Part shown: positions 8,208 through 20,480 of the stretch, one piece after another
Layout: each line of letters begins with the position of its first letter
Position numbering within the stretch: the first letter of the stretch is position 1
Virus record (IMG/VR): IMGVR_UViG_3300008263_000025
Coordinates: 1 to 20,480 of that record
Direction: 5' to 3' (one strand)
Length of the DNA: 20,480 nt
DNA from: a virus
The notes under the pieces: model-generated
Seen by the model: only the letters and a program-made list of their open reading frames with translations
Databases searched by the model: none
What the model was told of the DNA's origin: nothing
Translations under genes and position numbers: made by a program

Positions 8208-9554
8208 ATGGCCAATCAAGATATAACGCGCTTCAAATTCATAGGCTTCGCGCTAAACGGCGACGGCCCATTTCGCCCTCTCATCAGCTTCGACAGCAAG
8301 GCACGCCCCATCGCGGTGGCGTCGTCGTACCTGATCCAGTACCCGCGCGAGAGTGAAACCAAGTACGCGCGCCGCAATGAGATTGCTTGGTACGCCTCAC
8401 CGCTGGCCCAGGTCGTTTCTCGATTCGCCGGATACCTTGCAAGTCGGCCCGCCGTGCGCGCCATGGCCAATCCGCTGTACGAGGCGATGGCCGCCGACAT
8501 CGACGGCAAGGGCAACACCATCGACAGTTTCTGGTCTCAGTTTGTGGTTGAGGCCAAGGCGCGCGGCAGCATGCTGCTGCTGGTGGACATGCCCCCGGCC
8601 ATGGCGCCGACGCTTGAGCAGCAGGTAAGCTCCAGGGTTGCGCCGTACTGGACCAGCATCAAGCCCGAGCTCCTTACCGACTACCAAATCGGCGACGACG
8701 GGAAGTTTACTTACGCGGAGTTCTCGGGCAATTTTACGCTGGAGACGGGCGAGAGAGTCGATTGCACATGGCACTTTGACCTGACCTCCTGGCGTGCCAT
8801 AGATGGCCAGCTGCGCATCCTGGCCCAGGGTGAGCACCCACTGACGGAGTGCCCGCTGCTGATATTCACTGAGGGCGGCGATTTCCCATACTTCGGCCCG
8901 TTCTCGCCGATCGCGGACCTGTCGCGCAGGATGTTCAACCTGGATAGCGAGCTGGACGAAATCCTGCGCTCGCAGACGTTTAGCCTGCTGACCATGCAGG
9001 TGTCCGAGAACTCCACGGACGCCCAGAAAGTCCAGGCTGCGCAGGTCGTTGGCGAGACCATCGGCAGCAGCAACCTGATGGTGCATAGCGGCAGCACGCC
9101 GGCCTTCATCGCGCCACCGGACGGCCCTGCGCGGATTTACCTGGACCGCATTGCGGCGCTGAAGGATCAGATCAACGAGATAGGCCTGGTGATCGCGTCC
9201 TCCTCGCAGCGCGAATCCGGCCTAGCCCTGCAAATGCGGTTCCAGGCGCTGAACTCCGAGCTGGCGAAGTTTGCCGGCAGGATGGAGAGCCTGGAGCGCC
9301 GGGCCTGGGAGCTTTCGCGCCAGTGGCTGGGCCTGACCACCGCGCCGCAGATTTCTTGGTCGCGCGACTTCAACCTAGCCGACGTCGTGGCCGAGCTGGA
9401 CATTCTGGCCAGCATGATCGGTGCGGCCATGCCAACCGAAGTCATTGCCGAGCAGCAGAGGCGCATCGTGTCGGTGCAGTTTGCCGGCCTTGGGCAAGAG
9501 CAACAGGGCCAGATTCATGCCGCGATAGATCAGCGGCTTCTGGAGCAAGCATGA
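8208..9554 (+). CDS. Portal protein (DUF4055-like)
   Basis: 448 residues. The N-terminal region YLIQYPRESETKYARRNEIA and WYASPLAQVVSRFAGYLASR, the middle LLLVDMPPAMAP, and the C-terminal IASSSQRESGLALQMRFQAL and LERRAWELSRQWLGL are typical of portal proteins of the DUF4055/SPP1 gp6-like group. The portal forms the 12-fold ring through which DNA enters and leaves the head. It is the first gene of the plus-strand operon, opposite to terminase and coat genes. The initiator ATG lies only 50 bases from the divergent H-NS start and has no clear ribosome site. The stop overlaps the next start (ATGA at 9551). Confidence 0.88.
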   Translation: MANQDITRFKFIGFALNGDGPFRPLISFDSKARPIAVASSYLIQYPRESETKYARRNEIAWYASPLAQVVSRFAGYLASRPAVRAMANPLYEAMAADIDGKGNTIDSFWSQFVVEAKARGSMLLLVDMPPAMAPTLEQQVSSRVAPYWTSIKPELLTDYQIGDDGKFTYAEFSGNFTLETGERVDCTWHFDLTSWRAIDGQLRILAQGEHPLTECPLLIFTEGGDFPYFGPFSPIADLSRRMFNLDSELDEILRSQTFSLLTMQVSENSTDAQKVQAAQVVGETIGSSNLMVHSGSTPAFIAPPDGPARIYLDRIAALKDQINEIGLVIASSSQRESGLALQMRFQALNSELAKFAGRMESLERRAWELSRQWLGLTTAPQISWSRDFNLADVVAELDILASMIGAAMPTEVIAEQQRRIVSVQFAGLGQEQQGQIHAAIDQRLLEQA

Positions 9555-9901
9555 GCGCCGAAGTGCACAATCTCAGCGTCGAAAAAGGCGCCAGCTACGA
9601 GCAAATCATCCGGTGGACGGATGACGACGGAGCGGCCATCAACCTGAGCGGCGCCACCGCGCGCATGCAGGTCCGCGCTGCCACCAACGTAACGACGGTT
9701 CTTTTTGAGGCCACCACGGCAAACGGCAAGCTGGCAATTGCAGGCGATCTCGGGCAGATCACGCTGACCATCACAGCCGCAGAGTCGGCCGCCTTTACCT
9801 GGAGCTTCGGCAAGTACGATCTGGAGATCGTCACCGCAGGCGGCTTGGTCTATCGCCTGATCAGGGGCACCATCAGCATCAGCGCAGAGGTCACGCAATG
9901 A
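9551..9901 (+). CDS. Small beta-sandwich phage protein, function unknown
   Basis: 116 residues from the ATG at 9551 that overlaps the portal stop. The protein reads MSAEVHNLSVEKGASYEQII then RWTDDDGAAINLSGATARMQ, and ends YDLEIVTAGGLVYRLIRGTI. This pattern (ligand-like strand, W-x-D-D-D-G, L-x-G-A-T-A-R-M) is widespread among phages as a small protein upstream of fibre genes, with Ig-like beta structure, but no defined role. It is coupled to the fibre gene downstream by an ATGA overlap at 9898. It could be a head-fibre or neck accessory. Confidence 0.8.
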   Translation: MSAEVHNLSVEKGASYEQIIRWTDDDGAAINLSGATARMQVRAATNVTTVLFEATTANGKLAIAGDLGQITLTITAAESAAFTWSFGKYDLEIVTAGGLVYRLIRGTISISAEVTQ

Positions 9902-10554
9902 GCATCGTCACCATCGTCGAACGCGGGCCGCAGGGGCCTGGCGGGGATCTCGGGGCCTACGGGTCGTTTGTGAGTCTGACAAACCAGACCATCGCCTCCG
10001 CGACCACAGCCTATGCGGTGGCGCTGGGCACCACGGCGGAAAGCCGAGGAATCTCAATTGTCGATGGCTCGAAGATCACCTTTGCCGAGGCCGGCACCTT
10101 CGCTCTGTCGTTTTCGCTGCAGCTGCACAACTCGAACAACAACATCCAGACCGCTCGCGTCTGGTTGCGCAAGAACGGCGCGGATCTGGAAAACACCAAT
10201 TCGATTTTCGACATTCCAGGCCAGCACGGTGGGTCCGATGGAGCGCTGATCGCCGCGACCACCATAGTGGTCACTGTGGCCGCTGGAGACAACCTGCAGC
10301 TCTACTGGTCTGCCAGCAGCACTCAGGCCTTCCTGCAGTACTTGGCCGCCGGCACCAGCCCCACCAGGCCGGTGACGCCTTCGGCCATCGTCGCGGTGCA
10401 GCAGATCATGTTCAGCGCCACGGCTCCGCTGCAGTTCATTGCCAACTCTTCAGAGCCTGCAACGCCCACGGGCGGCGGCATCCTGTTCGTCGCCTCGGGC
10501 GCCTTGAAGTACAAGGGCAGCTCTGGCACCGTCACAACCCTGGCCGCGGCCTAA
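9898..10554 (+). CDS. Fibre protein with short collagen-like stem and C1q/TNF-like knob
   Basis: 218 residues. Near the N-terminus are five Gly-X-Y triplets (GPQGPGGDLGAYGSF), a short collagen-like stem. Residues about 25-150 look like a C1q/TNF-type jelly-roll: VSLTNQTIASATTAYAVALG, GTFALSFSLQLHNSNNN, ARVWLRKNGADLENTNSIFD. This is a common trimeric knob in phage fibres. The C-terminus (GGGILFVASGALKYKGSSGT) resembles short tail-fibre end repeats. It is presumably an exposed virion fibre. It sits between the portal and neck genes, so it may decorate the head or neck rather than the tail tip (inference). Confidence 0.8.
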   Translation: MSIVTIVERGPQGPGGDLGAYGSFVSLTNQTIASATTAYAVALGTTAESRGISIVDGSKITFAEAGTFALSFSLQLHNSNNNIQTARVWLRKNGADLENTNSIFDIPGQHGGSDGALIAATTIVVTVAAGDNLQLYWSASSTQAFLQYLAAGTSPTRPVTPSAIVAVQQIMFSATAPLQFIANSSEPATPTGGGILFVASGALKYKGSSGTVTTLAAA

Positions 10555-10565
10555 AGGACATCATC

Positions 10566-10865
10566 ATGGCAAAGCTCTACGTTACCGAATTCCAGTTTCT
10601 CGAAAACGCCAACGACATCGGCGGCGTCCCCCAGGCGGCCAAACTGCCGGGCACCACCAACGTGGTGACCTTCACGACCAGCAGCGTACAGTCTGCCGTT
10701 TTCGGGGCCAACACCCGGTTCGTGCGCGTGGTGTCTGACGCGCCGGCCTGCCTAGCATCTGGCACCAACCCGACGGCGACCACCAGCGGGCTGCGCCTGG
10801 CGGCCGAGGCCACCGAGTATTTCGGCGTCACGCCTGGCCAGCGCCTTGCAGTGATTGGGGCCTGA
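10566..10865 (+). CDS. Small virion-associated protein, function unknown
   Basis: 99 residues, MAKLYVTEFQFLENANDIGG, with a good AAGGA site eight bases before the ATG. The protein is beta-rich; its C-terminal half (RFVRVVSDAPACLASGTNPT, LRLAAEATEYFGVTPGQRLA) resembles small phage proteins thought to be decoration or fibre-associated. The ATEYFGV..GQ.LAVI ending is recognisable to me only as a recurrent phage motif. It lies between two fibre-type genes, so a structural role is likely. Confidence 0.75.
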   Translation: MAKLYVTEFQFLENANDIGGVPQAAKLPGTTNVVTFTTSSVQSAVFGANTRFVRVVSDAPACLASGTNPTATTSGLRLAAEATEYFGVTPGQRLAVIGA

Positions 10866-10867
10866 CC

Positions 10868-12109
10868 GTGCTGGGCCAGAACATTGGCCGCGTGGGCCTG
10901 CCGGACATGGCCAGCGGGGGGCGGCCGTCGCTGTCGTTCAACTTTGCGGCGATGCCGGCCTTAGACCCGAGGATCACCTTCACCCGAGCGTCCACTGGCA
11001 CGTTCTTCGACTCTGCTGGAGTGCTGACCAGCGCAGCCGTTGACGCCCCACGCTTCGACTACAACCCCAGCACGCTGGCGGCTCGGGGGCTGCTGATTGA
11101 GGAGGCGAGGACGAATTTGGTGTTGCAGTCTGAAGACTTTGCAACTACTTGGGGGCAAACCGCCTCACCTATTGTTTCTACAAACACAACTGTTGCGCCT
11201 GACAATACGACAACGGGGGACACAATAGGCTCCACAGCAACGGGCAGCTATGTATTTCAGAGTATTACGTTTACGGGAGATGGTACAAAGGCTTTTTCTA
11301 TCTTTATAAAACAAGGGACTTCTACTGTTAATAGGTTGTTTGTTAGAGATACAACAGCAGGGATAAATAGAGGCCTAACAGATGTAACTTGGACTGTTGG
11401 AGTCCCATCCGTTGTTGTAACAAATGGGTCTTTGCTAAGTTTGACGCAATTATCTAACGGGTGGTATCGCGTACAAGTTGCAGTTGATAGTGTTGTTGCT
11501 GCTAACTCAAATCAGTTAAGAATTCAGCCGGATACTGCAACAGGTACTGGAACAGTCATTTTGTGGGGTGCTCAGTTAGAAAATGGAGCCTTCCCCACCA
11601 GCTACATCCCCACCACTGTCGCACAAGTCACTCGCAACGCCGATCTGGCTTCAGTGAATACGCTGAGTCCTTGGTTTAATGCCACGGAGGGGACGTTGTT
11701 TGCGGAATTTTCGGTCTATACGTCCATCGGAAGTAAGGCAATTGCCGGTATTACAGACGGAACCACCAATAACCGAATTCAGTTTTTTGCAAGTGCAGCC
11801 GACCCATACAACGTCTCGCCTCGTCTTGTGTCTGGTGGTGTTGCAACAAACCCATCGCCTGCTGGTAGCGTAACAGTTGGATCAACAGGTAAAGCAGCAC
11901 TTGCTTACGCAATAGGTACAAATCAAGGTGGCATTTCTGTAAACGGCAGCGCGGTAAATCAATCAAGCCCTGCATCTGCATTTGGCAGCGTAACGCAACT
12001 TGAACTTGGCAAAGGCTCGGGCCTTACTCAAACCAACGGCTACCTCCGCCGCATCACCTACTACCCCCGCCGCCTGAGCAATGCCGAGTTGGTCAGCATA
12101 ACGAGCTAG
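10868..12109 (+). CDS. Spike/fibre protein with lectin-like domains (head-spike type)
   Basis: 413 residues from a GTG at 10868; an ATG at residue 14 is an alternative. The N-terminus has SLSFNFAAMPALDPRITFTR and ASTGTFFDSAGVLTSAAVDA, then RGLLIEEARTNLVLQSEDF: the entry motif of phage head-spike fibre proteins. Residues about 90-250 are one jelly-roll, ending in GAQLENGAFPTSYIPTTVAQ. The C-terminal 150 residues form a second LamG-like module ending GYLRRITYYPRRLSNAELVS. Such proteins usually bind surface polysaccharide. DNA from about 11100 to 12000 is much richer in A and T than both flanks, which suggests the binding domains were acquired from another source. Confidence 0.82.
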   Translation: MLGQNIGRVGLPDMASGGRPSLSFNFAAMPALDPRITFTRASTGTFFDSAGVLTSAAVDAPRFDYNPSTLAARGLLIEEARTNLVLQSEDFATTWGQTASPIVSTNTTVAPDNTTTGDTIGSTATGSYVFQSITFTGDGTKAFSIFIKQGTSTVNRLFVRDTTAGINRGLTDVTWTVGVPSVVVTNGSLLSLTQLSNGWYRVQVAVDSVVAANSNQLRIQPDTATGTGTVILWGAQLENGAFPTSYIPTTVAQVTRNADLASVNTLSPWFNATEGTLFAEFSVYTSIGSKAIAGITDGTTNNRIQFFASAADPYNVSPRLVSGGVATNPSPAGSVTVGSTGKAALAYAIGTNQGGISVNGSAVNQSSPASAFGSVTQLELGKGSGLTQTNGYLRRITYYPRRLSNAELVSITS

Positions 12110-12111
12110 TC

Positions 12112-12738
12112 ATGGCAAAACCACGCATCGATCTTACTGGGCGCTTGTTTGGCCGTTTGACGGTCAAGAGCAGGATTGTTCCACTTAAAGGACGGACGCT
12201 GTTTGTCTGCGCTTGTGAGTGCGGCAAAGAAGTTACCTTGAACGGTTCTGATCTTCAGACAGGAAATACAACGTCATGCGGCTGCCTTCGGGACGAAAAA
12301 ATCGCAAAGGTCAATTACAAACATGGCGCGGCTTCATGTAATGACCTAACTGGCGCATACCGTTCGTGGCGCACCATGAAAGACAGGTGCTACAACGAGG
12401 ACAACAATCGCTTCTATGCTTACGGCGCACGCGGTATCAAGGTGTGCGACAGGTGGCGCGATTCGTTTGAGAACTTTTTTGCGGACATGGGTGAGCGGCC
12501 AGACGGATACACGCTTGACCGCATTGATGTCAATGCAGATTACAGTCCAGAAAACTGCCGCTGGGCTTCCACATCCGAGCAAGCCCGCAACCAGCGCACA
12601 AATGTCTGGTATCAGGTTGGTGATGAGCGAATGATTCAAGCTGACGTTGCGCGGGCTTTAGGTATTCACCCGTCGCAAGTTCTTGGAATGCGCCGCAGAG
12701 GCGAATTGCCGCCGCACATTCAGGCCATCACAGCATGA
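12112..12738 (+). CDS. HNH-type endonuclease with zinc-finger N-terminus
   Basis: 208 residues. The N-terminus IDLTGRLFGRLTV is followed by a likely Cys4 zinc site (C33, C35 or C37 with C56 and C58 in TSCGCL). Next come HGAASCNDLTGAYRSWRTMK, YGARGIKVCDRW and FFADMGERP. The nuclease signature is YTLDRIDVNADYSPENCRWA (D136, R139-region, N148), typical of phage HNH homing-like enzymes. The C-terminus (ADVARALGIHPSQVLGMRRR) is a helix-turn-helix-like DNA-binding segment. It starts two bases after the spike-gene stop and is not needed for virion building. It is probably a free-standing mobile endonuclease that entered behind the spike gene. Confidence 0.85.
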   Translation: MAKPRIDLTGRLFGRLTVKSRIVPLKGRTLFVCACECGKEVTLNGSDLQTGNTTSCGCLRDEKIAKVNYKHGAASCNDLTGAYRSWRTMKDRCYNEDNNRFYAYGARGIKVCDRWRDSFENFFADMGERPDGYTLDRIDVNADYSPENCRWASTSEQARNQRTNVWYQVGDERMIQADVARALGIHPSQVLGMRRRGELPPHIQAITA

Positions 12739-12773
12739 CCTACGACCCCTTCGACCCATTCAACGAGGTGCCC

Positions 12774-13076
12774 ATGTACACCGATTACTTCCTGAAATTT
12801 GCTGACGAAGCCGAGGCCAACGCGGCGCTGTTCACCGAGCAGACCCACGTGCAAGACGATGTGGCCGAGACGGTCAAAGTCCCCCGCTACGCGGCTGTTG
12901 ACGTGATTGGCACCATCTACAAGCCCACGGGCAAGTCGTTGAAGACGGCTGAAGGCCCGGTGCCCGAGATGAAGGCTGTCCCCGGCTGGCATGTCAACGT
13001 GCGCCACACCGCTGAGGCCCCGGAGCTGGAGGCTTTCCGCGTGTTTCCCGAAACCCCCAGCAGGACATGGGCATGA
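12774..13076 (+). CDS. Small phage protein downstream of fibre genes, function unknown
   Basis: 100 residues from the ATG at 12774 (MYTDYFLKFADEAEANAALF), which has GAGG five bases upstream. An in-frame ATG at 12735 overlaps the HNH stop but lacks a good ribosome site. The C-terminal motif PGWHVNVR and the preceding DVIGTIYKPTG recur in small proteins next to fibre genes in many phages of Proteobacteria; I know no established function. It may be fibre-associated or a fibre chaperone. It overlaps the next gene at ATGA (13073). Confidence 0.75.
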   Translation: MYTDYFLKFADEAEANAALFTEQTHVQDDVAETVKVPRYAAVDVIGTIYKPTGKSLKTAEGPVPEMKAVPGWHVNVRHTAEAPELEAFRVFPETPSRTWA

Positions 13077-13342
13077 CAGACGACGACTTCAAACGCCTTG
13101 AAGGCAAGGTTGACAAGCTGGCCGAGGCCATCACGAAGCTGGTTCTGGTCGAGGAGCGCCAGGCCAATCAAGGCGAGCGGATCGGGCGTGTGGAGCAGCG
13201 CGTTGCAGCTGTCGAGACGGCAGTCGCCAAAACAGATCGCACCGTGCAGATGTGGATCAACCGCGGCATCGGCGTCTGGGGCTTGGTGGTCCTGGTTTTC
13301 ACGATGGTGCAGTTCGGTTCGAAGTTCTTTGGGGGCAAGTGA
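13073..13342 (+). CDS. Coiled-coil protein with one C-terminal membrane segment
   Basis: 89 residues from the ATG at 13073, which overlaps the previous stop (ATGA) and has AGGA eight bases upstream; an ATG at 13067 is an alternative. Residues 5-60 are a charged heptad-like coiled coil (FKRLEGKVDKLAEAITKLVL, GERIGRVEQRVAAVETAVAK). Residues 64-82 form one hydrophobic segment (GIGVWGLVVLVFTMVQF), followed by a basic end. The layout resembles XhlA-like membrane-associated phage proteins, which work with holins. The position in a neck operon makes a lysis role uncertain. The gene is coupled to the neck protein by a TGATG overlap. Confidence 0.75.
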   Translation: MTDDDFKRLEGKVDKLAEAITKLVLVEERQANQGERIGRVEQRVAAVETAVAKTDRTVQMWINRGIGVWGLVVLVFTMVQFGSKFFGGK

Positions 13343-13779
13343 TGGCCATCAGCGTCCAGGTCGGCGACATCCAAAGCGTCATCAATCGCCTGACGGCTAT
13401 TCCTGTCGGGCTGGAGAAGTACGTCATCAACAACATGGCGCAGGTGGCGTATGACGAGGCCGAGCGCGGCGCGGACAAGCACACCAAGACGGGAACGCTG
13501 CGCCAGGCCCTGTACAACCGCGCAATTCCTGACGGCCGCGCTATCGGGCATGACCGCAACCGCGCGCCATACGCGGCGTTTGTCTTGCTCGGCACCAGGC
13601 CGCACAAGATCCTGCCAAAGCGCAAGAAAGCCCTGCGCTGGGCGTCGGGCGGCAAGTTCTTCTTCGCAAAGTCCGTGAACCACCCAGGGTATCGCGGTGA
13701 CAATTACCTGCTGCGCGCTGCCACCGAGGCCGTGCGCCAATTTGACCGCATCGTGCGCACAGGGATGGCCAAGCAATGA
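13342..13779 (+). CDS. HK97 gp10-like neck/minor tail protein
   Basis: 145 residues from the ATG at 13342, overlapping the previous TGA. The motifs QVAYDEAERGADKHTKTGTL, RNRAPYAAFVLLGTRPHKIL, KFFFAKSVNHPGYRGDNYLL and AATEAVRQFDRI match the HK97 gp10 family, which closes the head-tail junction in siphophages. The R-A-P-Y-A-x-F-V-x-x-G-T core is diagnostic. It is followed by a small gene and a tail-terminator-like gene, the usual order of the neck module. A long upstream in-frame reading from 13252 is a shadow of the membrane protein. Confidence 0.87.
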   Translation: MAISVQVGDIQSVINRLTAIPVGLEKYVINNMAQVAYDEAERGADKHTKTGTLRQALYNRAIPDGRAIGHDRNRAPYAAFVLLGTRPHKILPKRKKALRWASGGKFFFAKSVNHPGYRGDNYLLRAATEAVRQFDRIVRTGMAKQ

Positions 13780-14081
13780 CAGTTCTGAACTACCCCGACG
13801 CTTACTTGGCAAAGTACTGCACCGTGGACCGCGAGACGCGCGCGTTTGACGAGGTTGATCTGCTAGGCACATTTTCCACGGCCTGGCGCAATCGGCTGGC
13901 GGTGCTCAAGACTTACATTCTGGCGTGCCTTGAGAACCAGGCCGACGCCGAAGACCTGTTCACCGCCAAGCTGGCCAGCTACCGCAAGGAGTTCGACAGC
14001 ATGCTGGCCCAGGCTCGAGGCGCCACGCCTGACGAGTCGGGCAATACGCTGATCTTCAACGTGCCGTTGGAGCGGGCATGA
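13776..14081 (+). CDS. Small neck-module protein, function unknown
   Basis: 101 residues, MTVLNYPDAYLAKYCTVDRE, starting at an ATGA overlap with the gp10-like gene. The protein is helical, with a central segment AWRNRLAVLKTYILACLENQ and a charged helix ADAEDLFTAKLASYRKEFDS. I cannot assign a family. Its place between the gp10-like and tail-terminator genes suggests a head-tail connector role, but no motif supports this directly. Confidence 0.75.
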   Translation: MTVLNYPDAYLAKYCTVDRETRAFDEVDLLGTFSTAWRNRLAVLKTYILACLENQADAEDLFTAKLASYRKEFDSMLAQARGATPDESGNTLIFNVPLERA

Positions 14082-14440
14082 ACGCCGCGCTTGAAGCCGC
14101 ACGCGACGCATTCGCCACCATCCCAGGGGTCAAGTCCTGCAAGATCGGCCTCGAGGCCAATCTATCGCCCGAGGACTACCCGATGATCCGCATCGTGCCG
14201 TTCCGGATTACGCCGGGGCGGCCATATGGCAATCGCAGCTCGGAAACGTTCGTCTACTTCGGCGTGCCGGTGGCAAACTCCGAGGGCCTGGAGTCGGTCT
14301 ACGAGTCGCTGTTCGATCTTGAGGGCAAGATCCTGGAAAAGCTCAAGACGCTCCAGGGACGATACATCGAGACGGTTACCGACGAGGACCGCATCGACAC
14401 CTACAAGCTGATGTCGATCCGTTGCTTCCTTGAGGGTTAG
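14078..14440 (+). CDS. Tail terminator/completion-like protein
   Basis: 120 residues. It starts with a helix (MNAALEAARDAFATIPGVKS), then strands (YPMIRIVPFRITPG, TFVYFGVPVA) and a helix (GLESVYESLFDLEGKILEKL), ending in DTYKLMSIRCFLEG. This alpha/beta order and size fits tail-terminator proteins such as lambda gpU, which cap the tail tube. It is the last gene of the plus-strand operon. Its TAG (14438-14440) overlaps the TAA of the converging gene, leaving no space for a terminator. Family assignment is by layout, not by a clear motif. Confidence 0.72.
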   Translation: MNAALEAARDAFATIPGVKSCKIGLEANLSPEDYPMIRIVPFRITPGRPYGNRSSETFVYFGVPVANSEGLESVYESLFDLEGKILEKLKTLQGRYIETVTDEDRIDTYKLMSIRCFLEG

Positions 14441-14604
14441 TCTCGGTCGTCTCCATATTCCTCGCGCTCCTCTTTCCACTTCTCAAAACATACGGCTGCG
14501 CGCTGGCCCACGTTGCTAAAGTCTTCGCGCATGGTCGGATTGGCCATGCAGCGGGCAATGAAATCATCGCGGCCCTCATCGGGGCCCGGTTGAGGAATAG
14601 GCAT
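14437..14604 (-). CDS. Small conserved late phage protein (Cys-containing, head module)
   Basis: 55 residues from the ATG at 14604 (MPIPQPGPDEGRDDFIARCM), overlapping the minor head gene by 29 bases, with GGAG about ten bases upstream. The pattern MPIP-P..DE-x-D-x-FI-x-RCM, then REDF, then QRAAVC-x-x-W recurs as a small phage protein or as the tail of head-module proteins. Function is unknown. A longer reading from 14715 is a shadow of the minor head gene. The stop overlaps the tail-terminator stop from the opposite side. Confidence 0.75.
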   Translation of the reverse strand: MPIPQPGPDEGRDDFIARCMANPTMREDFSNVGQRAAVCFEKWKEEREEYGDDRD

Positions 14605-16516
14605 TTGCGGCTTGCTCCAGGTTGACGATGCGATAAACCGGGTTTGAGCCGGCGTTGTGGACTGCAAGCGCAGATTCGCCGGCCTGGACTCTGGCCAGCT
14701 TGTCGCGCGAGCCAATTATCTTCGCGGCGATAGGCTCGGATAATCGGTTAAGAAAATACTGATCAGCCTCGGAGTCCTCCTGTGCCTGGCGCCCGCTGAG
14801 GTCCAGGCGTGGGGAGCTGATGCACTTGCAATTGTGCGTCACAATGCCATTGCATGTATAATGACCTTGTTCCGTCTCAAGGTTGTAGACATGGCCAGAA
14901 AAATTGAATCTATTGACGTCGATTATGTTGTCAACCAGTACAGCGCCGGTCGATCCATTTTGGATATTTCTGGCGAGTTCAGCGTCAGCCGCAACGTCAT
15001 CGAACGCAGGCTGATTCAAGCCGGGGTCCAGCTTCGGGGGCAGAGCGAAGCCAGCATCGTCAGGATGAGCAAGCTCACCAAAGACCAAAGGCTCGCACTT
15101 GCTGCAAACGCTCACAACTCCATTCGAGGCACGAAGCGCAGCTTTAAGACCTTGGTCAAATGCGCCATCGCCAAGCAAGCGAGTCAGTCCTCCGTCAGCG
15201 AACACGAGCAACGAATCATGCATGCCTTGCGCGGCCAAGGCATCGACCCTATCCCACAGCTTGCGATTGGCCCCTATAACTGCGACCTTGCCTGCTATCC
15301 CGTCGCCGTGGAAGTGTTCGGTGGTCAATGGCACTTCTCTGGTCGCCACCTTGCTCGAACTGAAAAACGCATCCGCTATCTCGGCAATGCGGGCTGGCAT
15401 GTGCTGATGCTGGTCGTCGATGAAGGAGTAGCCCACTACCGATTCGGCGCCGACACGGCTGATCACATTGCCACCTACGTTCAGCAAGCCCGCAGCAATC
15501 CATCCGGCGCTCGTGAGTACAGGGTGATTGACTGTCGCGGTCACACGTTGGCCGGTGGCCGTTGTGATGACGACCATATCTCCGTCATACCAGCGTTTAC
15601 TAACCGCCGCGATGTTGACAGCGGACGTTATGAGCGCGTCGCCAGGTAAACAAAACGGGTGGAAGGGCGGATTCGGGGCCTTGGCTTTCGGGTACACCCC
15701 ACGGCCAAGCCCGTACTGATCGCGGCCGGTAATCAGGTCACAGATGCACGGCGCGGTGCTGGTGCGGCTCCTGCGGATCTGGACAAACTCCAGATCTTCG
15801 TCTTCCAGCTGGATCTGCGCCTCGCGCTGGGAGTATGCCCGGTGCGCCTCGGTCCTGGCGATGCGCTCGGCAAAGTACCGCGTGCGCTCGTAGAACGCCG
15901 TTTTAAGCGTCTTTTCCAGCTCCACCCTGCCCACGGTGCCCTGAATGTCTTCTATCGCGTCCAGGGCCTGGCTGTAGGCCGCGCGCAGGGCTGGCGTTGA
16001 CAGTCCGTCCACCTGGATGCGCGCAAAGGCCTGGGCCATCTTGCGCCGCACGGGATCCGGGTCCAGGATCTCTCGCATGTACTTCGGCAGCTTCGGGTTC
16101 TCGGGATTGATCTGCAGCGGCTCAGCGTCTGGCTCTCGAAACCCGTAGCCTTCGAACAGCTGCAACGCCAGGCGCTTGGAGTCCTGATAGCCGCGCACGT
16201 TGCGCTGCACGATGCCGGCCACGATGTTGGAGACGTCCTGCGCCTCGGCGTACAGCTTGCGCGATAGGGAGACGGGTCCGATGTTGATGGCCAAGGCCGA
16301 CTCGGTGCCTACGCTGCGCTGAAGCACTGCGGACAGCGATGCGGCCATTAGGTCGGCGAACTCACCGGTAAATGAGTCCATCACCCGCGTGATGGCATCG
16401 CGCGGCGCAGTGCCGCGGCGCATCAGGTCCATCGCGCGCCGGTAGGCGGCGAGCACCTGCGCTTCGACGTCGGCCGAAAGCTGGTCCAATAGTGCGAGTT
16501 CTTCGGCTGGTGTCAT
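14576..16516 (-). CDS. Minor head protein (SPP1 gp7/Mu F type) carrying an intein
   Basis: 646 residues as translated. The host protein is split: N-extein residues 1-288 and C-extein 563-646, so about 372 residues after splicing, a normal size for gp7/Mu F proteins. The family motif A-R-T-E (RIARTEAHRAYSQREAQIQL, residues 219-236) is followed by TAPCICDLITG and then the PPFHPF-CKC motif, which the intein interrupts exactly before its first Cys. These proteins enter the procapsid and help packaging or DNA ejection. The gene overlaps the large terminase by ATGA at 16513 and the following small gene by 29 bases. Without splicing the conserved HP-x-C-x-C region would be broken, so splicing is probably needed for function. 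Confidence 0.9.
   Translation of the reverse strand: MTPAEELALLDQLSADVEAQVLAAYRRAMDLMRRGTAPRDAITRVMDSFTGEFADLMAASLSAVLQRSVGTESALAINIGPVSLSRKLYAEAQDVSNIVAGIVQRNVRGYQDSKRLALQLFEGYGFREPDAEPLQINPENPKLPKYMREILDPDPVRRKMAQAFARIQVDGLSTPALRAAYSQALDAIEDIQGTVGRVELEKTLKTAFYERTRYFAERIARTEAHRAYSQREAQIQLEDEDLEFVQIRRSRTSTAPCICDLITGRDQYGLGRGVYPKAKAPNPPFHPFCLPGDALITSAVNIAAVSKRWYDGDMVVITTATGQRVTATVNHPVLTSAGWIAAGLLNVGGNVISRVGAESVVGYSFIDDQHQHMPARIAEIADAFFSSSKVATREVPLTTEHFHGDGIAGKVAVIGANRKLWDRVDALAAQGMHDSLLVFADGGLTRLLGDGAFDQGLKAALRASNGVVSVCSKCEPLVFGELAHPDDAGFALPPKLDPGLNQPAFDDVAADAELARNIQNGSTGAVLVDNIIDVNRFNFSGHVYNLETEQGHYTCNGIVTHNCKCISSPRLDLSGRQAQEDSEADQYFLNRLSEPIAAKIIGSRDKLARVQAGESALAVHNAGSNPVYRIVNLEQAANAYSSTGPR
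14857..14862 (+). promoter_or_regulatory. Perfect -10 box for the antisense endonuclease gene
   Basis: TATAAT, preceded directly by TG, lies 28 bases before the endonuclease ATG. A poor -35 candidate, TTGTGC at 14832-14837, is 19 bases upstream. The transcript would start near 14869, followed by AAGG (14879-14882) and ATG at 14891. An inverted repeat ATTGTG-CGT-CACAAT (14831-14845) covers the -35 region and could be an operator. The box lies in DNA that on the minus strand encodes the conserved intein end (HYT of GHYTCNGIVTHN), so coding constraint and promoter overlap. Confidence 0.6.
14891..15649 (+). CDS. Vsr/EDxHD-like homing endonuclease, antisense within the intein
   Basis: 252 residues. 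The start is the ATG at 14891, with AAGG eight bases upstream; a GTG at 14834 would lie before the TATAAT box. Residues 8-50 are a helix-turn-helix (VVNQYSAGRSILDISGEFSV, SRNVIERRLIQAGVQLRG). Residues 102-178 are a PD-(D/E)XK core of Vsr/EDxHD type: SEHEQRIMHALRGQGI (E104, E106), IGPYNCDLACYPVAVEVFGG (D132, E141), QWH (H148), then TEKRIRYLGNAGWHVLMLVV. That layout is known from phage and intein-linked homing nucleases. The gene fills the intein: the TAA stop at 15647-15649 is the complement of the intein's second codon (Leu TTA). It reads in exact codon register against the sense frame. It probably cuts intein-less alleles of the minor head gene. Confidence 0.82.
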   Translation: MARKIESIDVDYVVNQYSAGRSILDISGEFSVSRNVIERRLIQAGVQLRGQSEASIVRMSKLTKDQRLALAANAHNSIRGTKRSFKTLVKCAIAKQASQSSVSEHEQRIMHALRGQGIDPIPQLAIGPYNCDLACYPVAVEVFGGQWHFSGRHLARTEKRIRYLGNAGWHVLMLVVDEGVAHYRFGADTADHIATYVQQARSNPSGAREYRVIDCRGHTLAGGRCDDDHISVIPAFTNRRDVDSGRYERVAR

Positions 16517-17748
16517 AGGCCTTGAATCCTAACCGCTGCAGCGCCTGAGTCGCGCTGGCGGATCAAAGGGTTTAGCGCATAACGCACAGCGTCGATTCCG
16601 TGATTCCAAGCGTCCACGACATCGGGCATGATGTCGCCCGTTAGCCGATCCACGCGGTAGCTGTACAGGCTGGTCTCCTTGATCAGATGCTTGCATCGAG
16701 GATGAATCACGATCTCGGCGTAACTGCGCAAGTGCGCAATGCCGTCGTTGACACTGCCCGGCCATTTGGCCACTGGCACCACCCTGGGCAAGCCGTGCCG
16801 TTGCAGGTAGCTGATGGACTCTGGACGGGCGCTGTCGGCGCGCATGGTGTGCTGCTGCACCCCTGGTATCAACTGCGCCAGAAAATCGGTTGTAGCGTCG
16901 ATTTCGAGGCCTTTGGCCTGTGCTTCGTGGTCAACCCAAACGCGAGAGTCTTTGATCCAGCAGCGCACCGCGGCGGTCGGGTCTTGCGCAAAGCCAAAGT
17001 CCAGGCCGTAATAAGGCCCGTCCCAGGCAGGCCCGCCTGCTTCAAAGTCGCGCACTGCGACCTTGCCGGCCAGCACCTGGGCATCGCTTTTGGTCAGGTA
17101 GGCGCCGTCCCAGACATGCGCATATGTGCCTGGATCCATCATGGCCTCCTGGCGGCGGCGCAGCTCGTCCAGCTCGGGCGGGAAAAACGGATTGTCCTGC
17201 CAGTTGATCTCGACAATTTTTGACCGGTCTGGCGGCCGCTTTCTAAACCGCGTGTCTACCGGGCTGTTGTCCAGGCGCGGGTTCCACAGCACCCACATCT
17301 CGGCCTTGGGCTGGCGGAAAACGGTCGGCTCGAGATCCAGCCAGGCCGACTCGGGCACGTCCTCTGCCTCTTCGACGATGGTCAGGTCGATCTTGGCCGT
17401 GGACTTCACAGCCGTAATGTTGTTGCGCAGGCCGCGGAACAGAAACTCCGTGCCGTTGCGTCCGCGCAGGTAGTCCACCCCGACGTCGTAATGAGCTGCG
17501 AGCCACGGGTATGCCGCAATGGCCGCCTTGAGCTCGGCATGGAATGACTCTTTGATGCTCACCTGCAGCTCGCGCGTGCACAGCACCCGCAGCGGCTCGA
17601 TGAAACCCCAGATGGCCGCCATGAGGGCCATGCTGAAGCTCTTGCCGCTGCCGCGGCCGCCGTAGACGCCGCGGTACAGGTATGCCCCCCTGGGTTCTTT
17701 GAAAACCCCGAGGATTTTCGGCGGCAGCTCGACGCGGGCCGTGGTCAT
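16513..17748 (-). CDS. terL: Terminase large subunit
   Basis: 411 residues. The Walker A motif is GGRGSGKS (residues 30-37), and the Walker B is LTIVEEAEDV (122-131). The motor-coupling segment is VLWNPRLDNSP (153-163). The nuclease domain shows YYGLDFGFAQDPTAA (D250), MRADSARPES (D305) and DVVDAWNHGIDAVRY (D379, D386), the three acid clusters of the RNase H-like nuclease. This is the PBSX-type Terminase_3 family. It cuts concatemeric DNA and drives it into the procapsid through the portal. It overlaps the small terminase by ATGA (17745) and the minor head gene by ATGA (16513), so all three are translationally coupled. Confidence 0.96.
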   Translation of the reverse strand: MTTARVELPPKILGVFKEPRGAYLYRGVYGGRGSGKSFSMALMAAIWGFIEPLRVLCTRELQVSIKESFHAELKAAIAAYPWLAAHYDVGVDYLRGRNGTEFLFRGLRNNITAVKSTAKIDLTIVEEAEDVPESAWLDLEPTVFRQPKAEMWVLWNPRLDNSPVDTRFRKRPPDRSKIVEINWQDNPFFPPELDELRRRQEAMMDPGTYAHVWDGAYLTKSDAQVLAGKVAVRDFEAGGPAWDGPYYGLDFGFAQDPTAAVRCWIKDSRVWVDHEAQAKGLEIDATTDFLAQLIPGVQQHTMRADSARPESISYLQRHGLPRVVPVAKWPGSVNDGIAHLRSYAEIVIHPRCKHLIKETSLYSYRVDRLTGDIMPDVVDAWNHGIDAVRYALNPLIRQRDSGAAAVRIQGL

Positions 17749-18170
17749 TCAGATTTTGCGATCAGCTCAATTCTGTGAACCAGCGGCGATTTATCGTCTC
17801 CGCTGATCTCGAGTTTCTCGCCGTATTTTTTCGGCGCCAGTTTCGATAACAGCCACTTGCGAGTATCTACCTGGAGTTTGTGCTTTTGCACGGCGGCCCA
17901 GTCTTTACGGCCATCGGGGGTTTCTCCGACATCGACGTCGGATAACTCCATGACCTCTTGGGCGATGCGTTCGACGAAGTTCTCGCGCGCCTGCGCGTAC
18001 CTGTCGGCCAGCTCCGCATCCTGCCCAACCCACAGCATGAACGTCGGCATCGGCACGCCGGCCTGCTGGCAAGCCTTAAAGCAGCTCATGCCAAAGTCCA
18101 TCGCCTTGATGACCTTCTCCGCGACTTCGGCCCGCTCAGGGCTTCCTGGCTTGGTTCGTTTGTTTGCCAT
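17745..18170 (-). CDS. terS: Terminase small subunit
   Basis: 141 residues from the ATG at 18170 (MANKRTKPGSPERAEVAEKV), which has AGGAG five bases upstream; an earlier in-frame ATG at 18194 lacks such a site. The N-terminal half is a helix-turn-helix-like DNA-binding region (AMDFGMSCFKACQQAGVPMP, TFMLWVGQDAELADRYAQAR). The C-terminal half (DWAAVQKHKLQVDTRKWLLS, KLAPKKYGEKLEI) is typical of small terminase subunits. It recognises the packaging site and hands DNA to the large subunit, whose gene overlaps. The repeat-rich region just upstream may hold its pac or cos site. Confidence 0.9.
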   Translation of the reverse strand: MANKRTKPGSPERAEVAEKVIKAMDFGMSCFKACQQAGVPMPTFMLWVGQDAELADRYAQARENFVERIAQEVMELSDVDVGETPDGRKDWAAVQKHKLQVDTRKWLLSKLAPKKYGEKLEISGDDKSPLVHRIELIAKSE

Positions 18171-18188
18171 GTTTGCTCCTATGTTAGT

Positions 18189-18202
18189 GACCACTCATGG
18201 TC
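18189..18202. promoter_or_regulatory. Inverted repeat upstream of the small terminase
   Basis: GACCA-CTCA-TGGTC, a short perfect inverted repeat with a four-base centre, lies 18 bases before the small-terminase ATG. It could be an operator or a recognition half-site. I could not find convincing -35 and -10 boxes next to it. Confidence 0.35.
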
Positions 18203-18233
18203 TCAAAAACGGGTCCGGCGCTTGTCGCTGGAC

Positions 18234-18407
18234 TCTACGCGTTCTACACCTCTACGCGTAGAACGCGTGATTTTCAAAACCCCTCCATGTGCGTGCGCAT
18301 GTGTGTGTGCATGTGTATTAGTATAGACATGGTGTAGAACGTGTAGAACGTGTAGAACTCCAATGCTGACAACAACTTAGAACGTGTAGAGAGTCTACGC
18401 GTTCTAC
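18234..18407. repeat. Cluster of GTAGAAC repeats (candidate origin or regulatory/packaging site)
   Basis: The intergenic region 18171-18403 has no gene. It holds TCTACGCGTTCTAC at 18234-18247 and again, identical, at 18394-18407. The palindrome TCTACGCGTAGA lies at 18251-18262, running into GTAGAACGCGT (18258-18268), which pairs with 18237-18247. Three perfect tandem copies of GTGTAGAAC lie at 18332-18358. TAGAACGTGTAGA at 18378-18390 faces the last copy across three bases (13-base arms, one mismatch). The stop codon of the primase gene lies inside the last repeat. Iteron-like repeats beside a primase-helicase fit a replication origin. A terminase site or a repressor operator array are alternatives. 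Confidence 0.7.
18286..18317. other. Alternating pyrimidine-purine tract (Z-DNA-prone)
   Basis: From CATGTGCGTGCGCATG through the GTGTGTGTGCATGTGTA run, 32 bases alternate strictly between pyrimidine and purine. The tract lies in the middle of the repeat cluster and is followed by the AT-rich TATTAGTATAGACAT. Such tracts can take left-handed form under negative supercoiling and help strand opening. Whether this one does is not known. Confidence 0.6.
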
Positions 18408-20480
18408 TCGTCCTTGACCCAGGCCCGGAAACTGCGCCCGTTTGTCGATTTGGTGATGACCGTTCGCCAGCCGAGCACTCGCATCACCCGACCGACCCGT
18501 TTCTGTGCGATCTGGTCATGGCGACCGATCTCAATCTTCAAACAGTCAGACAAAATCTCTGATGTTGTCGGACGATTCTGATTCCACAGCCATCCTCCGA
18601 TGACGGATTCCCATGAGTCGGAATCGCGCCTGGACTCAACTTCTTCGTTTTGAAGGTCCATCGGGACGTCCCACCATGAGCCGCCATCGTTGAACAGGTG
18701 GACGGCTTCAGCAAAGAGCTGGTCTCGGTTGTCACGCAGCCAATCGTGGTTCACGTTGCCGCAGCGAACGGGCCAGAACCGGCGTGCTCCAGTTTCGTCT
18801 CTCTGCCAGTCGTCGCGGTTCGTTGTGCAGGCCAGAACAGTTTGTCTCGGATGGTTTTCTGTGTTCCTTCCGTAGCTTTTTCTATATCTATCCATCTGGC
18901 AAGAGATAATGCCTTTGATTCGCTCAACCTCTGCGCGAGTAAATGAGTGCATCTCTGCAATCTCGACCAGCATGTGGCCTTTCAGGACTTCGTAGAAGTC
19001 TTTGTGCGTCACGTTTTCATGACACTCTGTGAACCACTTGCCTCCGAGGATGCGCAGCGCGGTGGACTTGCCGGCCCCTTGCGTTCCCTCCAGAACAGGC
19101 ACGGTATCAACCTTGCAGCCTGGCCGAAACACGCGGGCCACCATTGACATGACCCAGCAGCGTCCTACGGCGTCGGTGTAGGCGTTTTCTGGGGCTCCAA
19201 GGCCTTCTGACATCAGGTAGGACAGGCGGCGCACGCCGTCCCAGCCAAGCGACTTCAGCCAGTCCTTGCACTCGTTGCGCGTGTCGTGGAAGGCGGCCAC
19301 CACAGCAGCGTCATGACAGGTTTGCAGGCCTATGCGCGTGAGTCCTACGTGGCGTTGCATGTAGAGCTGCAGCAGCACGTCGTCGGCGTCTTTCCACTGG
19401 CGTTCCTCGCCCTGCCATGTGGTCATGATCGTGTCGAGAAACTCGTCGTACCAAATCTTGCCGCGCAGATTTGGATCAGACTCAATCGCCCTGACCACGT
19501 TGTCAAGGTTCATGATCGGCGTGCCGTTCGGCATCAGCACCAGATCAAGCTGTTGCCGAGCGTCGATCTCGCCTGTCTCTGGATCGATTGACGGTGGGAT
19601 GGCGACCGCTGCGCTAGGTCGCCACTTTGTCGCCCGTGGCACCATGAAAGCCTTGCAGTCGTCCCAGCACGCAAAGTCAGCGTCGGCTGCGTCCCACCCG
19701 TCCGGTTGGCCCGAAACGTCCAGAATCTTGACCTCGGCCGCACTGGTGGCGATGATCTGGGCCACGCGCTCCATGGCCTTTCGGCCAGGCTCATCTGCGT
19801 CCGGCCATAACAGCACCTTGCGGCCTGCCAGCGGCGTCCAGTCGGCCTTGTCTGCGGCCATTGCGCCTGCTGGCCACGTCACCGCCACATAGGGACCGCT
19901 GAACCGTCGCGCAGCGTCTGCGGCCTTCTCGCCTTCGACCACCAGCACCGCAGCGCCAGGACGCTCTGCAATCTCTTGGAGACCGTACAGCGGACGCGGC
20001 GATGGCCACTGGCCCATGCCCCAGCGCTCACCGTTCCACGTCCACGGGACAATCTGCTTGCGCTCGCCCGCAGGCTCGTAGCGGGCCACGTAGCCCAGCA
20101 CCTCGCCGTCTGCGTTGCGGTACGTCCACCGCGCCGATGGCTTGTCATAGCGAGTGTGCACACACGGACACTCGGCGAAGTCGGCAGGCACTGGCGTGAC
20201 AACGCGCCTCGCTGGTTCTGCCGGTGGAGCTGCGTGCGCATGACCGTTAACGCGCTTGGCCGGTTTTGTCTCACCGCCGAGATGGCGATATGCATCGCCC
20301 ATTGGCAGCTCGTAGATCGCGGCGTACAGGCTCACCAGATCGCTGCCGTGGTCACCAGTTGCGAAGTCTGACCACGCGCCTGTTGCAAGGTTGACCTTGA
20401 GGGATTGACCGGCGGCACCGCTGAGATCGCCAGCGACCCAGGAATTGCCGCGCTTGCGGCCGGCTGGCAGCCAGGATGCG
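18404..20480 (-). CDS. Primase-helicase (Toprim plus VirE/D5-like), 5' end beyond window
   Basis: About 691 residues are visible and the frame is open to the right edge. An internal GTG at 20335 is not the start: upstream in frame lies LPAGRKRGNSWVAGDLSGAA, then LKVNLATGAWSDFATGDHGS, the usual N-terminal zinc-primase-like module of phage primases. A Toprim-like part follows (VLVVEGEKAADAA and LLWPDADEPG, near 19940 and 19800). The C-terminal part is a VirE/VapE family SF3-like ATPase with Walker A EGTQGAGKST (near 19065-19095), VEIAEMHSF, ACTTNRDDW and the arginine-rich GARRFWPVRC. It probably primes and unwinds DNA at the phage origin. The repeat cluster begins inside its stop codon. Confidence 0.92.
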   Translation of the reverse strand, partial: ASWLPAGRKRGNSWVAGDLSGAAGQSLKVNLATGAWSDFATGDHGSDLVSLYAAIYELPMGDAYRHLGGETKPAKRVNGHAHAAPPAEPARRVVTPVPADFAECPCVHTRYDKPSARWTYRNADGEVLGYVARYEPAGERKQIVPWTWNGERWGMGQWPSPRPLYGLQEIAERPGAAVLVVEGEKAADAARRFSGPYVAVTWPAGAMAADKADWTPLAGRKVLLWPDADEPGRKAMERVAQIIATSAAEVKILDVSGQPDGWDAADADFACWDDCKAFMVPRATKWRPSAAVAIPPSIDPETGEIDARQQLDLVLMPNGTPIMNLDNVVRAIESDPNLRGKIWYDEFLDTIMTTWQGEERQWKDADDVLLQLYMQRHVGLTRIGLQTCHDAAVVAAFHDTRNECKDWLKSLGWDGVRRLSYLMSEGLGAPENAYTDAVGRCWVMSMVARVFRPGCKVDTVPVLEGTQGAGKSTALRILGGKWFTECHENVTHKDFYEVLKGHMLVEIAEMHSFTRAEVERIKGIISCQMDRYRKSYGRNTENHPRQTVLACTTNRDDWQRDETGARRFWPVRCGNVNHDWLRDNRDQLFAEAVHLFNDGGSWWDVPMDLQNEEVESRRDSDSWESVIGGWLWNQNRPTTSEILSDCLKIEIGRHDQIAQKRVGRVMRVLGWRTVITKSTNGRSFRAWVKDE

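Follow-up and report, generated by a model that had tools for sequence, protein, structure and literature searches.

A repeat array 3' of a phage vapE gene as a probable replication origin

Anatomy of the array and its neighbours

The window, that is, the whole stretch of DNA analysed here, is a 20,480-base linear virus record. It holds a vapE helicase gene, left open by the record's end, and the terS gene of an Sf6-like small terminase. An earlier note on this DNA had pointed to a sizeable non-coding region between a replication gene and a small terminase gene. That description was borne out: no other gap between likely genes of the ORF list is as large, and the region has vapE (PF05272) on one side and terS on the other. 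The features of the locus are as follows.

18404..20479, minus strand: vapE, encoding a primase-like N-terminal part, a PF05272 AAA+ helicase and a predicted C-terminal winged helix; the gene is open at the end of the record
18404..18616, minus strand: the C-terminal domain of VapE (residues 313-382 of the helicase half), a predicted winged helix and the putative reader of the iterons
Between the terS start codon (18168-18170) and the vapE stop codon (18404-18406): noncoding stretch of 233 bp
18378..18407, no strand: proximal inverted iteron pair, overlapping the vapE stop codon; retained in close relatives
18332..18358, plus strand: three tandem 9-bp iterons GTGTAGAAC, in the TGTAGAACG register; all copies change in concert in relatives
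18320..18347, minus strand: promoter-like site TCTACA-16-TATACT, pointing to terS and overlapping the tandem iterons; a consensus match only
18269..18331, no strand: 63-bp spacer between the iteron blocks, proposed melting region
18286..18318, no strand: 33-base alternating purine-pyrimidine tract, Z-DNA-prone
18234..18268, no strand: distal inverted-iteron block, containing the 12-bp palindrome TCTACGCGTAGA at 18251-18262
18234-18247 and 18394-18407, minus strand: two identical 14-mers GTAGAACGCGTAGA
18234-18268 and 18378-18406: hairpin-forming pairs
18241 (minus), 18258, 18334, 18343 and 18352 (plus), 18401 (minus): exact GTAGAAC copies of the array
17745..18170, minus strand: terS (PF20901, E 2.5e-24), a neighbour that we do not judge to be part of the origin

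Read on the vapE strand, the array starts with an inverted pair into which the vapE stop codon falls, continues with the three tandem 9-bp copies and the 63-bp spacer, and ends with a second block of inverted copies. Two iteron blocks (18234-18268 and 18332-18407) thus lie on either side of the spacer (18269-18331). The repeats listed in the earlier note (the 14-base pair, the 12-base palindrome, the three tandem 9-base copies and the hairpin pairs) were all found. The note had also named GTAGAAC as the shared core of a 175-base cluster, and its copy number is far above that of shuffled sequence. The motif occurs 7 times in the window, versus 0.82 expected, and 0 of 100 shuffles reached 7. Six of these exact copies, in both orientations, fall inside 175 bp between vapE and terS; one stray copy lies at 15890. 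A search for TAGAACGYGTAGA with up to 2 mismatches returned 5 sites in the window, all within the array (0.41 expected; 0/100 shuffles). The promoter-like site occurs once, versus 0.1 expected. Cumulative GC skew showed no switch at the array in the window and three longer relatives, and so lends an origin there no support.

VapE matched PF05272 with an E value of 1e-71; PHROG helicase/primase matches were also found, DUF5906 matched more weakly and Pox_D5 gave no match. In an AlphaFold2 model of the helicase half (mean pLDDT 92.8), the C-terminal domain folds as helix-helix-helix-strand-strand (HHH-EE), an arrangement that we read as a winged helix in the predicted structure. The best solved structural match of the helicase half was PriRep1 with double-stranded DNA (7pds; TM 0.85, E 1e-27), so that VapE has the PriRep/Rep helicase fold found in the rep-ori modules of PICI/SaPI type.

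Other genes of the window have features of their own. The portal gene (8208-9554) and a gene block to about 14440 occupy the plus strand (8208-14440), and the TerL, TerS, minor head, major head and tape measure genes occupy the minus strand (14437-18170); such a strand switch inside the structural genes is unusual. The minor head gene (14576-16516, minus strand) carries an intein (PF14890). Opposite the intein segment, in codon register, runs a 271-aa HTH-plus-nuclease-like ORF (14834-15649, plus strand) with a weak match to PF18741 (MTES_1575), and with DUF559 and HTH matches in relatives. By tblastn, the antisense protein was found in 129 phage records. Among eight divergent phages (the window and phages of Salmonella, E. 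coli, Gordonia, Aggregatibacter, Idiomarinaceae, Pseudomonas and Vibrio), the antisense frame outscored the intein frame in 28/28 pairwise comparisons; the gene is unannotated in all seven named phages, and in the relative PhiSTP2 a stop interrupts the antisense frame close to its 5' end. The segment looks like an intein and its homing-type endonuclease encoded on opposite strands of the same DNA. Among published cases, a nearest parallel is an HNH gene read out of frame on the same strand within a phage methylase insertion (PMC11855218). Amid the tail-side genes, a 208-aa ORF (12112-12738, plus strand) has a weak C-terminal HTH_17 match, below the cut-off; from its appearance, it may be a homing gene of the free-standing HNH type.

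Co-transfer of the array and the helicase half of vapE

We retrieved 24 relatives using the VapE protein; a search of genome contigs with VapE found no relative. The array is retained in close relatives of the window. Four contigs (L020-L023) display a natural exchange. Their vapE primase end (window 20480 to about 19602) is 89-91% identical in DNA to the window and their terS segment (window 18200-17765) 88-94% identical (over the two segments, 88-94% in L020 and L021). The intervening 1.4 kb, comprising the helicase half and the array, has no DNA similarity to the window, and the arrays of these contigs bear TGTCCCT-type iterons instead. Conversely, L007, L012 and L017 have the helicase and the array and lack terS; a ParB-like gene, which contains …YAKNSRTHSDAQV…, stands in its place. 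The array is also unchanged in L044, L057, L059 and L061 although their TerL is only about 39% identical. Thus, the array follows the helicase half rather than the packaging genes.

These exchanges bear directly on whether the array is a packaging site (pac or cos) read by the small terminase, as the earlier note had suggested among three readings. The array directly precedes terS, and in some phages the small terminase recognises bent or repeated DNA close to the gene that encodes it. However, array and terS are decoupled both ways, and a pac or cos site would be conserved with its terminase: the array was swapped in L020-L023 despite terS identities of 86-94%, and it stayed unchanged in the three contigs without terS and in the four with a distant TerL. 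We consider the packaging reading very improbable.

A binding site for a phage repressor, also raised in the note, is just as improbable, as is a centromere-like site of a ParB-like protein. The array does consist of short inverted repeats, typical of operators, and the ParB-like gene is the next gene after it in L007, L012 and L017. However, the scattered copies at promoters that an operator would predict were absent: in seven longer relatives (13.7 to 39.6 kb, possibly incomplete themselves), the iteron sites sit at one locus per genome, with zero copies at other promoters or elsewhere. The same array precedes terS, with no ParB-like next gene, in the window and in L003-L006, and its iterons co-vary with the C-terminal domain of VapE (see below). 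Exact 16-mer matches also turned up in viral contigs with no related vapE in the retrieved stretch, as single matches without an array in L027, L028, L030, L031 and others and as two or three matches in L034 and L047; we read these matches as chance or unrelated.

Iterons, VapE and the spacer across phages

Two profile-based scans and one protein scan yielded 228 usable vapE loci, or 93 after removal of near-duplicates. In 57 of the 93, the most repetitive 300 bp start between -140 and +480 of the vapE stop, versus 8.4 expected (nominal p 7e-36, a value that assumes independent loci); a first pass over 49 loci had placed the peak of repetitiveness beside vapE in 34, versus 4.3 expected. The other 36 of the 93 loci have no such peak beside vapE. 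A repeat array 3' of vapE is thus a recurrent feature of these phages. It is seen in Marinobacter PS3, Pseudomonas LPPA36 and Staphylococcus StauST398-2 as well, with a different repeat unit in each and, in LPPA36, one small gene between vapE and the repeats. The PF05272 domain of PS3 has been described as an auxiliary metabolic gene able to aggravate pathogenicity, with no origin named (PMC8424206). The repeats 3' of this gene (GenBank MF959999) point to an ordinary replication helicase.

Forty-four arrays with good support (a score of at least 5) were extracted de novo, many of them with a unit spacing of 8-11 bp. Once in register, most are close to TGTnnCCnn (TGTAACCCG, TGTTACCCG, TGTTTCCGA, TGTAGCCGA, TGTCCCACT, TGTCACCAC); the window iteron TGTAGAACG deviates from this frame at positions 6-7. 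Because the registration step favours the TGTnnCCnn frame, the trimer count on raw cores is the fairer number: TGT/ACA is the most over-represented trimer and lies in the core 8-mer of 25/44 arrays, versus 5.8 expected from the loci.

Among near relatives, all the copies of one array shift together (TTCTAC, TGTAAC, TGTTAC, TGCTAC), as expected for sites that one protein reads. Across 41 helicase-array pairs, the distance between iterons followed the distance between VapE C-terminal domains (Mantel r 0.42), also when the AAA+ domain was controlled for (partial Mantel 0.22, p 0.0002), while the reverse control, iteron versus AAA+ domain with the C-terminal domain controlled, gave 0.06 (p 0.13); the iterons differed by 1.4 letters on average where the domains were ≥70% identical and by 4.3 where identity fell below 30%, and shared ancestry inflates both the Mantel figures and this trend. 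For this reason, the natural exchange in L020-L023 is cleaner evidence than the Mantel figures. Column-by-column pairing of residues with iteron letters was likewise confounded by shared ancestry, and we do not claim it as a code. Judging from these sequence comparisons, the iterons are probably bound by the winged helix at the C terminus of the neighbouring VapE.

The 33-base alternating tract in the spacer is the longest such run of the window (the next is 16), and the longest run in 500 order-1 Markov sequences was 24. Thirty-bp windows of the spacer contain 50-67% AT, so that it is not markedly AT-rich, as the spacer of a PICI/SaPI-type rep-ori would be. The spacer core near ACTAATACA is mostly retained in near relatives while the iterons change. 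The longest alternating run of a locus falls beside the vapE stop in 27 of the 44 with an array, versus 4.4 expected, and in 4 of the 36 without one, versus 3.4 expected. Several arrays, for instance that of the Staphylococcus phage, have no alternating run. Alternating purine-pyrimidine runs are able to adopt Z-DNA, and we infer that the tract may do so here or may help in melting. Our literature search, which covered few subscription papers, found no publication linking Z-DNA or alternating purine tracts with iterons or phage origins.

A probable replication origin

Taken together, these results are best explained if the array is the replication origin of the phage, which we consider very likely. 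Of the three readings in the earlier note, this is the one that finds support: the array follows the helicase half, and the layout recurs in many phages. We propose that VapE is an origin-binding initiator and self-loading helicase. Its C-terminal winged helix would bind the 9-bp iterons TGTAGAACG, inverted and tandem in two blocks, and VapE, encoded immediately upstream, would assemble on both blocks. It would then open the alternating purine-pyrimidine spacer between them and load itself as a ring helicase, after which the primase-like N-terminal part of VapE, or a partner, would prime synthesis. The model is weakest where it assigns melting to the spacer.

VapE might instead bind the array for gene control, either for autoregulation or to govern terS and the late genes through the promoter-like site, with the origin elsewhere. 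That site does overlap the tandem iterons and is directed to terS, and the co-variation evidence suits any VapE-bound site. However, the array lies at the 3' end of vapE and not at its promoter, it is retained when the downstream gene changes, and its two blocks around a long spacer resemble proven rep-ori modules (PMC6092414). Gene control is thus unlikely, if somewhat less so than a packaging site or an operator.

The closest likeness for an origin is the rep-ori of PICI satellites, in which the origin lies 3' of rep and two iteron sets surround an AT-rich region, a layout shared, according to its authors, by no other known replicon (PMC6092414). Here too, the array immediately follows the helicase gene, its first iteron pair overlapping the vapE stop codon; two iteron sets surround a spacer; terS can come next; and VapE shares the fold of PriRep1, a SaPI helicase (VapE-type PriRep). 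The window differs in its spacer, an alternating purine-pyrimidine tract that is not clearly AT-rich, and in the primase part fused at the N terminus of VapE. Since the record has TerL, portal, major head, scaffold and tape measure genes, it is a phage and not a satellite. By sequence, then, the layout matches that of a PICI/SaPI rep-ori, here in full tailed phages, with the Z-DNA-prone spacer as an apparent variant.

Streptococcus thermophilus phage Sfi21 provides a second comparison. Its 302-bp phage-inhibitory element is origin-like and blocks incoming phage (PMC6356513). The annotated Sfi21 origin follows the 3' end of a D5-type helicase gene and has an AT-rich core flanked by inverted repeats. 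In both phages, a noncoding element of this build, a core between inverted repeats, thus follows a helicase gene. However, the Sfi21 helicase matches Pox_D5/DUF5906 and not PF05272, its core is strongly AT-rich and its repeats are unrelated beyond a GTA resemblance. At iteron plasmid origins of the RepA/RepE type, winged-helix domains of the initiator read short repeats; here, by contrast, the proposed initiator is itself an AAA+ helicase and the units are 9 bp long, in both orientations and 3' of the gene.

More broadly, and with a chance that we put a little short of even, VapE helicases may mark out a large class of origins in tailed phages: the iterons would share a 9-bp frame TGTnnCCnn, whose variable letters the C-terminal winged helix reads, the helicase half and the origin would form one swappable cassette, and a Z-DNA-prone alternating purine-pyrimidine tract would replace the AT-rich melting region in many members. 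Such arrays place a likely origin in many phages that have no annotated one. The many naturally matched helicase-iteron pairs would make a specificity code testable, and with an alternating spacer in place of an AT-rich core, it becomes a question how such an origin melts. As Sfi21 shows, elements of this kind can serve as phage-inhibiting decoys. Finally, an origin layout called unique to PICI satellites would extend to full phages, which bears on the source of satellite replicons.
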